Positions 30,341 through 35,892 of a stretch of 36,652 bases of DNA are shown here, in pieces. The stretch spans positions 1 to 36,652 of the forward strand of contig JAATFW010000295.1 in the NCBI GenBank assembly GCA_015654985.1, written 5' to 3'. A program made the position numbers and the translations under genes. The notes below the pieces were generated by a model. It saw only the letters and a list, made by a program, of their open reading frames with translations, did not search any database and was not told the DNA's origin. Positions within the stretch are counted from its first letter, which is position 1. Each line of letters opens with the position of its first letter. The DNA is from Sphingobacteriales bacterium (GTDB lineage Bacteria; Bacteroidota; Bacteroidia; Sphingobacteriales; Sphingobacteriaceae).

Positions 30341-31537
30341 ATGCGCAAAAAATTACAAGATAGAGTCCTTTCTTTTACAGAGGCGGTAGAGATTAAGAGA
30401 AAGGGGATGTATCCATATTTCAGGCCTATTGAATCGGGCCAGGATACAAAGGTGTTTATAGATGGCAAGGAAGTTTTGATGTTCGGCTCCAATTCATATC
30501 TTGGACTAACAAGTCATCCCAGAATTAAAGAAGCGGCAAAGAAAGCAATTGATAAATATGGAACTGGTTGTGCCGGTTCCAGGTTTCTGAATGGAACTCT
30601 TGATATTCATATTGAACTGGAAAGGCGGCTTGCACAATTTGTTGGTAAGGAATCTGCTGTGATCTTTAGTACAGGATTCCAGGTTAATCTTGGCGTATTA
30701 TCGTGTATAACCAACCGTAACGATTATCTCATTCTTGATGAATATAACCATGCTTCAATAATAGACGGAAGCCGTTTGTCTTTTTCACGCAGCATAAAAT
30801 ATGCTCATAATGATATGGACGATCTGCGTGCAAAGCTGAGCCTTTTGCCTGAAGAGGCCGCCAAAGTGATCGCTGTTGATGGTATCTTCAGTATGGAAGG
30901 CGACATTGTAAAACTTCCGGAAATTGTTGATCTGGCCAATGAATTTGGTGCCAACATATTTGTGGATGATGCTCACAGCCTTGGAGTAATAGGACTAAAT
31001 GGTGCGGGTACTGCTTCTCATTTTAATTTAACTGATGAAGTAGATCTGATCATGGGTACTTTTAGTAAATCTCTTGCTTCTCTGGGCGGATTTATTGCCA
31101 GCGACGAAGCAACAATCGATTTTATCAGACATCGTGCCCGTTCGTTACTGTTCAGTGCCAGCATGACTCCTGCTTCAGTTGCCAGTGTAATCACTGCTTT
31201 GGATATAATAGAAGAAGATCCTTCTATTATTGATAAACTATGGGATAATACTAATTATGCCAAGAAGCTTCTTCTTGATGCCGGTTTTGATCTTGGAGCA
31301 ACAGAGAGCCCAATATTGCCAATATATATCAGGGATAATGATAAAACATTCCAGGTGACCAATCTGCTCCAGGAGAATGGTGTATTTGTTAATCCTGTGG
31401 TTTCTCCTGCAGTACCTTCTGATTCGTCGCTCCTTCGTTTTTCATTGATGGCAAACCACACTTTTGAACAAATAGAGGAAGCTGTTGAAAAGCTTACCGC
31501 TGCATTCAGGAAAGTGGAGGTGTATGCCTTTAAATAA
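30341..31537 (+). CDS. spt: Serine palmitoyltransferase (alpha-oxoamine synthase)
   Basis: PLP-dependent enzyme of 398 residues that condenses L-serine with acyl-CoA to 3-ketosphinganine, the first step of sphingolipid synthesis; cytosolic homodimer. PLP-binding features are the Schiff-base Lys243 in [21 protein letters not shown], and the oxoamine-synthase motif [18 protein letters not shown]. The related KBL (glycine C-acetyltransferase) and BioF enzymes share the fold. The spt assignment rests on the downstream ceramide-type genes and on known Bacteroidota practice. It heads a tight run: the next gene begins 5 bp after its stop. Confidence 0.9.
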
Positions 31538-31542
31538 GAAAA

Positions 31543-32664
31543 ATGAAGCAGGTAAGACCAATTGATGTCAACAGAGAGTTAAAGAGTTTTATAGATTTTC
31601 CGCATAGTCTGTATAAGAATGATCCGAACTATGTGCCTGAACTATATATAGCTCAGAAAGACCTGTTAACCCCCGGGAAACATCCTTTTCATGAACATTC
31701 AAAAGTTCAGTTGTTCCTTGCCCGTAACGGGAAGGAGATTACGGGAAGAATTGCGGCAATTCTGAATAATAATCATAATGATTATAACCATACTACAGAT
31801 GGTTTTTTTGGTTTTTTTGATTGTATAAATGATCAGGAGACGGCTAATTTATTGTTTGATGCAGCATCAGAATGGTTAAAGGAGCAGGGTTCAAATACTT
31901 TAATTGGTCCGGCAAATTTTTCAACGAATGAAACGGTAGGATTGCTGGTTGAAGGATTCGACTCTCCCCCGGTTGCTATGATGCCTTATAATGCACCGTA
32001 TTACAGGGACCTTCTGGAGAACGCAGGACTTAAAAAACGAACTGATCTATTAGCTTATGATGTGCCTTACGACACCCATAATGATAAGTCAGTACGCTTG
32101 CTGAATACACTTGGGGAACGTCTGAAAAGGAATAATATATTGATCCGTAAGATCAATATGAAGAACTTTAAGGAGGAAGCTGAAAAATTAAGGGAAGTCT
32201 ATAATCAGGCATGGGATAAGAATCTTGGGTTTGTTCCTATGACGGAGCATGAGTTCAATCATATGGCCAAGGATCTGAAGATGGTTCTGAATCCTGATTT
32301 TTGTCTTGTTGCAGAACAAGACGGCAAATTTATAGGATTTGCTCTTGGTATACCTGATATTAATCAGGTGCTTATTAAAATAAAAAGAGGAAGACTTCTG
32401 CCTTTTGGCATATTTAAGCTTCTGACAGGATTGAAGAAAATCGATTGGTTGCGGGTAATGGTTCTTGGAGTTACAGAGGGTTATCGTAAGCTTGGAATTG
32501 AAGCATGTCTCTATGGAACGATCATTAAGAATGCAAAGGAAAATAATATCAGGGGTGCTGAGTGCTCATGGATGCTGGAAGATAATTATTTAATGAATAA
32601 AGCTATTGAGCAAATAAACGGAACTCTTTATAAGAAATACCGGTTATTTGAAAAGGCGATATGA
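31543..32664 (+). CDS. GNAT-type N-acyltransferase, candidate bacterial ceramide synthase
   Basis: A 373-residue protein with an acyl-CoA N-acyltransferase (GNAT) fold in two parts: an N-terminal module with the conserved DFPHSLYKNDPNYVPEL and HPFHEHSKVQLFLAR, GFFGFFD, GPANFSTNETVGLLVEGF, and a C-terminal module with VLGVTEGYRKLGIEACLYG. This is the YghO-like family that, in Caulobacter, includes the bacterial ceramide synthase (bCerS) that acylates the amine of (3-keto)sphinganine. The position between spt and an SDR candidate for the ceramide reductase strongly supports this role here. No membrane helices. Overlaps the next gene by 4 bp (ATGA), so translational coupling is likely. The function is inferred from family and context. 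Confidence 0.82.
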   Translation: MKQVRPIDVNRELKSFIDFPHSLYKNDPNYVPELYIAQKDLLTPGKHPFHEHSKVQLFLARNGKEITGRIAAILNNNHNDYNHTTDGFFGFFDCINDQETANLLFDAASEWLKEQGSNTLIGPANFSTNETVGLLVEGFDSPPVAMMPYNAPYYRDLLENAGLKKRTDLLAYDVPYDTHNDKSVRLLNTLGERLKRNNILIRKINMKNFKEEAEKLREVYNQAWDKNLGFVPMTEHEFNHMAKDLKMVLNPDFCLVAEQDGKFIGFALGIPDINQVLIKIKRGRLLPFGIFKLLTGLKKIDWLRVMVLGVTEGYRKLGIEACLYGTIIKNAKENNIRGAECSWMLEDNYLMNKAIEQINGTLYKKYRLFEKAI

Positions 32665-35060: not shown

Positions 35061-35514
35061 ATGTATAAATTTATTTCCACGGGTCCGGGTATCAGATATA
35101 TTCACAAAGGAGGAGGAACGGCTGCTTCCGTGTTCTGTTGTCTTTGCATATATCTGACCCTGCCCAATGGAAATAAATATGATGATTTACTTTCTGCCGG
35201 CATAACTATTATTCTGATAGCTGCGGGTGTTCTGGCTTCCTATAAGGCAGAACCTCTCCGGGGAAAGGGCAATTGCCGTGTGACAATTGACGAAACAGCA
35301 GGTATGCGGACCAGTGTGCCGTTTCTGCCTGTTAACATCTCCTGCTTGATTGCAGGGGCAATCTTATTCCGGATCTTTGATACCGGGAAACCATTTATTC
35401 ATGAGAAAGACTGAAAAACTGCCAGGTGGAGCCGGTGTAATGATGGATGACGTTCTGGCAGGTATTCACACAAATATTCTCCTTCAAATAGGAATTGCAT
35501 ACAAATTGCTTTAA
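35061..35514 (+). pseudogene. PgpA-family phosphatase, split by a frameshift
   Basis: Integral-membrane phosphatase of the phosphatidylglycerophosphatase A family, frameshifted. The first frame (35061-35414) gives 117 residues with the opening STGPGIRYIHKGGGTAASV, VTIDETAGM and LFRIFDTGKPFI, then stops at TGA 35412-35414. One frame over, an ATG at 35401 continues with RKTEKLPGGAGVMMDDVLAGI, the normal C-terminal signature of PgpA, and stops at 35512-35514. A full protein would be ~150 residues, the usual length. The C-terminal half holds the second acidic metal site, so the short product should be inactive unless frames are joined. It sits 5 bp after ino1; in this setting a phosphatase for phosphatidylinositol-phosphate is expected. 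Sequencing error is a live alternative. Confidence 0.85.
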
Positions 35515-35520
35515 AAAAAC

Positions 35521-35892
35521 ATGCTAAAATTTCTAAAAGCACAACTTGCTTCTTTTTCTGGTACGATTGTTGACTTTTTAACTACGTTAGTCAGTGTTGA
35601 GATTTTTAACGTATGGTATGTAACCGGAAATATAACAGGAAACATTTGCGGAGGGATCGCAAATTTTTATCTGGGGAGAAATTGGGTTTTTAATTCTAAA
35701 GATAAAAAGGTCTATATCCAGGGTCTAAAGTACCTGGGAGTATGGATAGGAAGTATTACTTTGAATACATCAGGGGTTTTCGCTCTTACACATTACTGCA
35801 GTTTTAATTACATCGTCAGCAAAGTAGTAGTGTCTCTGGTAGTAGGTTTTACTTACAATTATCTTTTACAGAATTATTTTGTGTTTAAGTAA
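35521..35892 (+). CDS. GtrA family membrane protein
   Basis: A 123-residue integral membrane protein of the GtrA/DPMS family with four predicted helices (about residues 8-28, 37-56, 73-95, 98-118) and the conserved NFYLGRNWVF and YLLQNYFVF motifs. GtrA-like proteins usually assist transfer of lipid-linked sugars (flippase-like or as partner of a polyprenyl-phosphate glycosyltransferase). It starts 6 bp after the split PgpA frame and so belongs to the lipid run. A role in moving inositol-bearing or glycosylated lipid is plausible but unproven. Its ATG at 35521 follows an A-tract. Confidence 0.9.
   Translation: MLKFLKAQLASFSGTIVDFLTTLVSVEIFNVWYVTGNITGNICGGIANFYLGRNWVFNSKDKKVYIQGLKYLGVWIGSITLNTSGVFALTHYCSFNYIVSKVVVSLVVGFTYNYLLQNYFVFK

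Follow-up and report, generated by a model that had tools for sequence, protein, structure and literature searches.

Ceramide and inositol headgroup genes in a single run of a Sphingobacteriales genome, and their predicted part in inositol phosphoceramide synthesis

The stretch of DNA analysed here, which we call the window, is the 36,652-nucleotide contig JAATFW010000295.1 (C171) of a Sphingobacteriales bacterium (assembly GCA_015654985.1), a draft of 4.73 Mb in 355 contigs with a completeness of 87.93%. Toward its 3' end lies a run of genes that joins the ceramide trio of serine palmitoyltransferase (SPT), acyltransferase and extended SDR to genes for an inositol lipid headgroup, and it is highly probable, from the genes, their order, their conservation, homology and predicted folds, that the locus is dedicated to the synthesis of inositol phosphoceramide (IPC). 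The initial annotation had described six genes in succession with overlaps or short gaps, and this is what we find: the genes for SPT, the acyltransferase, the SDR, myo-inositol-phosphate synthase (MIPS), PgpA and GtrA occupy six + strand open reading frames (ORFs) at 30341-35892 (ORF coordinates), with gaps of 5, -4, 70, 5 and 106 bases. A cupin ORF on the same strand terminates 310 bases 5' of the SPT gene. The run extends past 35892, with an ORF for a DUF5686 protein that begins 14 bases 3' of gtrA, to the end of the contig and then into contig C225, whose genes are given below in the coordinates of locus L057. They include a fusion of a phosphatidylinositol phosphate (PIP) synthase, here PIPS, with a DUF4833 domain.

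30341-31537, + strand: SPT, 398 aa (NF047600, solved SPT relatives)
31543-32664, + strand: bCerS/YghO-type acyltransferase, 373 aa, proposed ceramide synthase (identity to YghO and to a Sphingomonas cluster protein)
32661-33656, + strand: extended SDR, 331 aa, proposed 3-keto reductase, CerR-like (PF01370)
33727-35055, + strand: MIPS, 442 aa (PF07994, PF01658)
35061-35414, + strand: pgpA, proposed PIP phosphatase, ORF shortened to 117 aa by a frame break (PF04608)
35413-35514, + strand: C-terminal PgpA segment in another frame (three-frame translation; second PF04608 match at 35398-35490)
35521-35892, + strand: GtrA-family membrane protein, 123 aa (PF04138)
35907-36652, + strand: CarboxypepD_reg/DUF5686 protein, N-terminal 248 aa, cut by the contig end (Pfam)
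C225, L057: 5821-7770, - strand: rest of the DUF5686 protein (ORF and family match)
C225, L057: 4468-5784, - strand: PIPS-DUF4833 fusion, 438 aa (PF01066 58.1 bits, and DUF4833)
C225, L057: 3843-4463, - strand: FA_hydroxylase, 206 aa (family match)
C225, L057: 2894-3877, - strand: AUR1-like PAP2_3 IPC synthase, at most 327 aa (PF14378 85.4 bits)

The final 141 bases of the window match one end of C225 exactly, and this overlap is single-copy in the window contig and in C225, the two contigs searched for it. The C225 genes carry on the run in the same direction as the window genes, and by coordinate arithmetic the run would end at about 41389 in continued window numbering. The join is supported by locus L035, from a genome of the same genus (G066), which has all ten genes in identical order on one long contig. 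The window itself contains neither a PIP synthase nor an IPC synthase; both are on C225. The initial description of the whole route as nearly contiguous therefore holds once C225 is added, which completes the gene set for IPC, and fails within 30341-35892, where PIPS and IPC synthase are missing and pgpA is broken.

The first gene scores 731.9 bits against the SPT equivalog NF047600 (cut-off 640), and among solved structures it comes closest to the SPT chains 3a2b and 8guh, at about 614 bits, compared with 243.5 for the cysteate acyltransferase 28eh. The GNAT-like acyltransferase falls below every Pfam cut-off (PF00583 19.1 versus 20.7), reaches no NCBIfam family, and has a best match among solved structures of E 0.032. 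Its likeness to YghO and bCerS, proposed from the start, is borne out by sequence identity: over 370 columns it shares 38% with Escherichia coli YghO, and 35% with an acyltransferase encoded on a plasmid of Sphingomonas parapaucimobilis. The plasmid cluster in question comprises this acyltransferase, LptF/LptG, an acyl carrier protein, an NAD(P)H-binding protein and an SPT-like enzyme, and we take it to be of the Caulobacter spt-bcerS-cerR type; the comparison with bCerS and CerR was made against the Sphingomonas proteins and not Caulobacter's own. The SDR matches PF01370 at 127.2 bits and shares 28% identity with the NAD(P)H-binding protein encoded in that cluster. The label of CerR-like SDR is a proposal that draws on membership of the extended SDRs and on this distant identity, and the gene itself proves replaceable, being unmatched in 15 of 23 related genomes checked.

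In a set of 201 genomes of the family, SPT (E <= 1e-150) and a close acyltransferase (>=59% identity) occur in an identical set of 109 genomes; kinship among the genomes inflates such counts, though the match is complete. Any acyltransferase match at all is found in 197 of the 201, and a distant one in 88 of the 92 genomes that lack SPT. The acyltransferase of the run is accordingly, on its sequence and distribution, a strong candidate ceramide synthase for Sphingobacteriaceae. A paralogue in the same genome (C57, 30% identity) was considered for this role and is not favoured, the distant matches being indifferent to the presence of SPT. PMC9278070 already cites a ceramide synthase gene from bacteria of the Bacteroides type, so the phylum may have had a known one before this acyltransferase.

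Among the inositol genes, MIPS matches PF07994 at 355.1 bits, also passes PF01658, for which it is the sole match in the genome, and has 7nwr as its best solved relative (596.9 bits). The closest solved relatives of PIPS are the PIP synthases 6h53 and 6wm5, at about 81 bits, and the translation of the fusion contains the motif DX2DGX2AR...GX3DX3D quoted by Heaver et al. (PMC9246714). The PAP2_3 protein finds its best solved matches in AUR1 chains (9vj3, E 6.1e-18), and PgpA and GtrA exceed their family cut-offs (PF04608 49.2 bits versus 28; PF04138 66.8 versus 26.1). No NTP transferase or HAD hydrolase lies beside MIPS in the window run or in C225, the sequences searched for them. The IPC predicted at the outset is thus well supported at the level of the genome by the putative PIPS and AUR1-like IPC synthase on C225.

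In the route we propose, SPT would convert serine and an acyl thioester to 3-ketosphinganine, which the acyltransferase and the SDR would take to dihydroceramide. MIPS would convert glucose 6-phosphate to myo-inositol phosphate, PIPS would combine this with CDP-diacylglycerol, and a PgpA-type phosphatase would then yield phosphatidylinositol (PI). GtrA may aid the transfer of PI to the periplasmic leaflet, a step on which published results conflict, and the AUR1-like PAP2 enzyme, presumably at that leaflet, would transfer the phosphoinositol group to ceramide. The FA_hydroxylase probably hydroxylates the ceramide, and DUF4833 and DUF5686 probably come into play once PI has formed, where they may help to handle the completed lipid or to put it in place.

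The published systems differ from this arrangement. In Bacteroides thetaiotaomicron the SPT gene BT_0870 lies apart from the inositol genes BT_1522-1526 (PMC9246714, PMC8791184), and mutants tie the MIPS, PIPS, PgpA and IPC synthase steps to PI and IPC (PMC9246714, PMC8791184). The reductase of this species, BT_0972, is unclustered with SPT (PMC9278070), and PMC11334938, citing earlier work, states that sphingolipid-producing Bacteroidota do not have the three ceramide genes near one another. These accounts fit the premise of the initial annotation that ceramide and inositol genes are usually described apart, and the locus, with its ceramide trio adjacent, is an exception to the statement in PMC11334938. 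Like the BT_1522-1526 operon, the run has MIPS, PgpA, GtrA, PIPS and IPC synthase in matching relative order, with GtrA after MIPS and PgpA as BT1524 is in that operon. Unlike the operon, it has SPT, acyltransferase and SDR directly upstream, an internal DUF5686 gene, a fused PIPS-DUF4833, an FA_hydroxylase and a broken pgpA, and an LPG_synthase_TM gene was not found in the run. It resembles the proteobacterial spt-bcerS-cerR cluster in having homologues of its SPT, its acyltransferase and, as a putative reductase, its NAD(P)H-binding protein, and differs from it in sequence (28 to 37% identity), in having no acyl carrier protein gene and in being joined to inositol headgroup genes. We recognised no description of a single locus joining SPT and inositol genes in the open-licence literature. 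PMC12724326 mentions IPC as a possible anionic species in Sphingobacterium detergens, naming no gene locus there.

A survey of synteny, one of the checks that the initial annotation had proposed, finds the neighbourhood conserved. MIPS matches occur in 77 genomes of the family set, and with five weak ones (23-25% identity) set aside 72 remain; in 62 of these the acyltransferase lies 72-1232 bases upstream of MIPS on the same strand. We also examined 80 named loci chosen by MIPS similarity, counting on the MIPS strand; these counts are lower bounds, as some contigs are short. SPT and acyltransferase are both upstream of MIPS in 41 of the 80, PIPS is present in 70, PgpA in 68, the DUF5686 protein in 66, GtrA in 64, IPC synthase in 63 and FA_hydroxylase in 30, and all eleven parts occur together in 17. 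DUF4833 follows PIPS in 58 of the 70 loci that have PIPS, fused in 24 and separate in 34. The order from MIPS to IPC synthase is constant across the 80 named loci, seven of which have extra copies outside the stretch, and the linked run occurs in Sphingobacteriaceae as well as in loci titled Chitinophagaceae, Cytophagales, Pontibacter and others. Pararcticibacter amylolyticus and Arcticibacter eurypsychrophilus each carry the locus. Because the same order recurs in relatives, it is more than chance. In a sample of 295 genomes of the class, 19 have a full-length MIPS (the weak match G357 was dropped), and the linked genomes are the window's own, G014, G036, G051, G062 and G423.

An alternative inositol cluster of B. 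vulgatus and Prevotella, with an NTP transferase, a CDP-alcohol phosphatidyltransferase and a HAD protein, has been described (PMC9246714). This MIPS-linked cluster stands downstream of the ceramide trio in three relatives (g4), where the window locus instead has PIP-type enzymes. These three have the ceramide trio, MIPS, DUF5686, and then an NTP transferase, a 304-aa protein without assignment, a CDP-alcohol phosphatidyltransferase, LPG_synthase_TM and HAD, with DUF4833 and FA_hydroxylase coming after the alternative headgroup set. DUF4833, the hydroxylase and DUF5686 are therefore common to both routes, which suggests that their place is at or beyond a product that the two routes share, and not at PIP. 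In the class genome of locus L150 the order is MIPS, PgpA, GtrA, PIPS, IPC synthase and LPG, without the ceramide trio, as has been reported for B. thetaiotaomicron. A carboxypeptidase-regulatory-like match comes next in L150. The protein BT_1527, described as carboxypeptidase-regulatory-like and reported near both published clusters, is by that description a possible counterpart of the window's DUF5686 protein; going by its number it would lie on the other side of MIPS, unlike the match in L150.

A short way upstream of the lipid locus a GH130 mannooligosaccharide phosphorylase stands next to two group-1 glycosyltransferases, the three ORFs being 24344-25810 (+), 25843-26871 (-) and 26919-29195 (-). 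Loci L035, L036, L038 and L039 have ORFs of lengths like both glycosyltransferases in the same place.

Several observations weigh against a locus dedicated as a unit to IPC. The acyltransferase is apart from MIPS in 10 of the 72 family genomes (2 of group g16 and 8 of group g17), SPT and acyltransferase are not both seen upstream in 39 of the 80 named loci (a number of contigs being short), and only 6 of the 19 class genomes have the ceramide genes immediately before MIPS. The inositol gene order is rearranged or incomplete in L141-L145, L152, L154 and L155 of the class sample. On a MIPS tree of 108 rows, 104 of them scored, the link is absent from 52 of the 104, and its distribution takes seven changes, at least six of them forced by the starred branches, so the link between ceramide genes and MIPS has been gained or lost repeatedly; the trees, like the PgpA counts below, include a few genomes twice. 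The SDR has no match at E <= 1e-40 in the 15 of 23 genomes mentioned above; there is no room for it in 13 of the 62 linked loci, and neither the 13 genomes with these SDR-less loci nor the two g16 genomes have a match at that threshold, whereas in the eight g17 genomes it adjoins the acyltransferase. The SDR is therefore not the sole reductase in the group, and another must serve where it is missing. DUF4833 occurs in 15 of the 276 class genomes without a full-length MIPS. Scans for transcription signals gave 19 promoter-like matches across the region against 18.0 in shuffled sequence and 10 terminator-like sites against 5.2, and a promoter pattern of Bacteroidota was not found upstream of SPT; the scans were not decisive, and co-transcription of the run is putative.

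The state of pgpA, which adds to these points, raises the possibility that the inositol branch is decaying and that PI is no longer made from the locus. The assignment to the PgpA family stands, and the ORF is broken: it stops at 35412-35414 with the conserved C-terminal segment out of frame, so that the PF04608 match is split over two frames, and it has unusual residues at conserved positions. PgpA ORFs shorter than 135 aa number 0 of 77 in the loci of relatives (some loci being counted twice). The gene is 61% identical to that of L035, compared with 75% between L035 and L036, and its pN/pS is 0.43 against L035 and 0.38 against a second relative, versus 0.19 between those relatives, rough values since synonymous sites are near saturation. 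This pattern fits decay or, alternatively, an error in the draft assembly. Decay of the whole branch is nevertheless quite improbable in our judgement: the nine other genes of the run have pN/pS of 0.04 to 0.24 against L035, a second PgpA (C94, 133.8 bits) has an open frame of 168 aa, and PgpA was not seen in loci L041, L042, L090, L100 and L172-L174, which keep most of the other genes (only the loci being searched). With the locus pgpA apparently broken, dephosphorylation would probably fall to the second, intact PgpA or to another phosphatase.

It could also be that the genes are neighbours serving two pathways, the inositol genes leading to PI only and the ceramide trio to sphingolipids of another kind, ceramide phosphoethanolamine for example. 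The ten genomes in which the acyltransferase stands away from MIPS, in g17 together with the SDR, are on the side of this explanation, as are the 37 of 109 genomes with a close acyltransferase that have no full-length MIPS, from which it follows that ceramide genes also serve inositol-free lipids. We consider it even less probable than decay as an account of the locus, since the last gene of the run encodes an AUR1-like protein of the PAP2_3 family, which in its known reaction requires PI as well as ceramide and which accompanies MIPS in the 63 named loci counted above, and since all 72 family genomes with a full-length MIPS carry a close acyltransferase. A reading of the first gene as one for a cysteate acyltransferase, and of the product as a sulfonolipid, a class that occurs in Bacteroidota by a pathway thought to be sphingolipid-like (PMC9304779), is extremely unlikely and was rejected on the SPT scores.

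The best reading is thus a new arrangement of known pathways for IPC, with DUF4833 and DUF5686 as uncharacterised putative members, and these two envelope proteins are the most open part of the locus. We found no papers on either family in the open-licence literature. Before alignment near-identical rows were removed, leaving 55 of 63 DUF4833 and 45 of 63 DUF5686 sequences, of which 41 and 33 were used downstream. DUF4833 looks exported: in 43 of 44 ORFs the standalone form has a hydrophobic, signal-peptide-like stretch in its first 60 residues, the exception being L102, whose start lies far upstream, and each of 12 fusions inspected, from 33, has a hydrophobic stretch between the domains (a 15-residue mean of >=1.3, by simple hydropathy and by eye rather than by a signal-peptide program). 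PIPS is joined to DUF4833 through such a stretch at L035:12770-14062, at L057:4468-5784 and in 24 named loci. A model of DUF4833 (pLDDT 89.9) has no PDB match at E <= 0.001, the best being 0.12, so the fold suggests no function. The family is rare, being present in 27 of the 295 class genomes, comprising 12 of the 19 with a full-length MIPS and the 15 others already noted. In five loci titled Sediminibacterium or Sphingobacteriia (L088, L089, L103, L109 and L121) a second, divergent DUF4833 gene lies about 2.6-2.7 kb upstream of MIPS.

We considered DUF4833 as the PIP phosphatase because the seven loci without a PgpA match named above have DUF4833. This is not favoured: other loci have PgpA without DUF4833, or neither, the protein looks exported, and it follows the alternative cluster, which is not expected to make PIP (L049-L051, L159).

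In MIPS-less genomes the neighbours of DUF4833 are varied (10 neighbouring proteins scanned). At L157, in such a class genome, a CDP-alcohol phosphatidyltransferase (Pfam), GtrA and a 268-aa PhyH-like ORF precede DUF4833; L171, also from a class genome without MIPS, has the same order with a 268-aa ORF, and its match to the PIPS model is weak at 20 bits. The arrangement of L157 and L171 is possibly a second headgroup system. L156 (G481) has a PIPS-DUF4833 gene with an IPC synthase, and L159 (G435) has the NTP transferase, CDP-alcohol phosphatidyltransferase and HAD genes with DUF4833; neither genome has a MIPS at E <= 0.001, which suggests inositol from outside or a divergent MIPS.

For DUF5686, an AlphaFold model of the protein of a close Pararcticibacter relative (mean pLDDT 78.5, pTM 0.64) is a barrel, and its best Foldseek matches are Sam50, BamA and TamA at E 4.2e-09 and worse (best 50 of 127 at E <= 0.001), with TM-scores of 0.24-0.30 by query length and at most 0.59 by target length. 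The predicted barrel thus matches the Omp85 superfamily (BamA, Sam50, TamA), from which DUF5686 differs in its CarboxypepD_reg N-terminus, and from this model the protein looks like an outer-membrane barrel of the BamA/TamA type. Four DUF5686 matches, of which some may be fragments, were found in the genome, and the family is therefore not confined to the lipid locus. A TamB-family protein is encoded at 8027-11938 on the - strand (PF04357, 169.9 bits), about 18 kb from the lipid locus; it is a possible partner of TamA-like barrels, and no evidence ties it to the locus.

A more ambitious form of the IPC reading would make the locus a make-and-deliver system for an outer-membrane sphingolipid, in which GtrA would flip PI, the AUR1-like enzyme would make IPC at the periplasmic face, exported DUF4833, sometimes tethered to PIPS, would bind or escort the lipid, and the DUF5686 barrel, perhaps with a TamB bridge, would place it. 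We regard this as speculative and on balance rather unlikely. In total membranes of the BT1524 (GtrA) mutant IPC was reduced and PI raised, a rise in PI that was unseen in vesicles (PMC8791184), and the pattern fits a block in moving PI; the BT_1524 knockout of Heaver et al. is given no lipid phenotype in a figure legend (PMC9246714), which weakens the idea of delivery and counts against a GtrA step in the route.

What is known of inositol sphingolipids in bacteria comes mostly from gut Bacteroides, whose genes for them are described in separate places. A conserved single run offers a genetic handle on the entire inositol-sphingolipid route, and the two uncharacterised envelope proteins that it contains, DUF4833 and DUF5686, may bear on the transport of lipids to the outer membrane.

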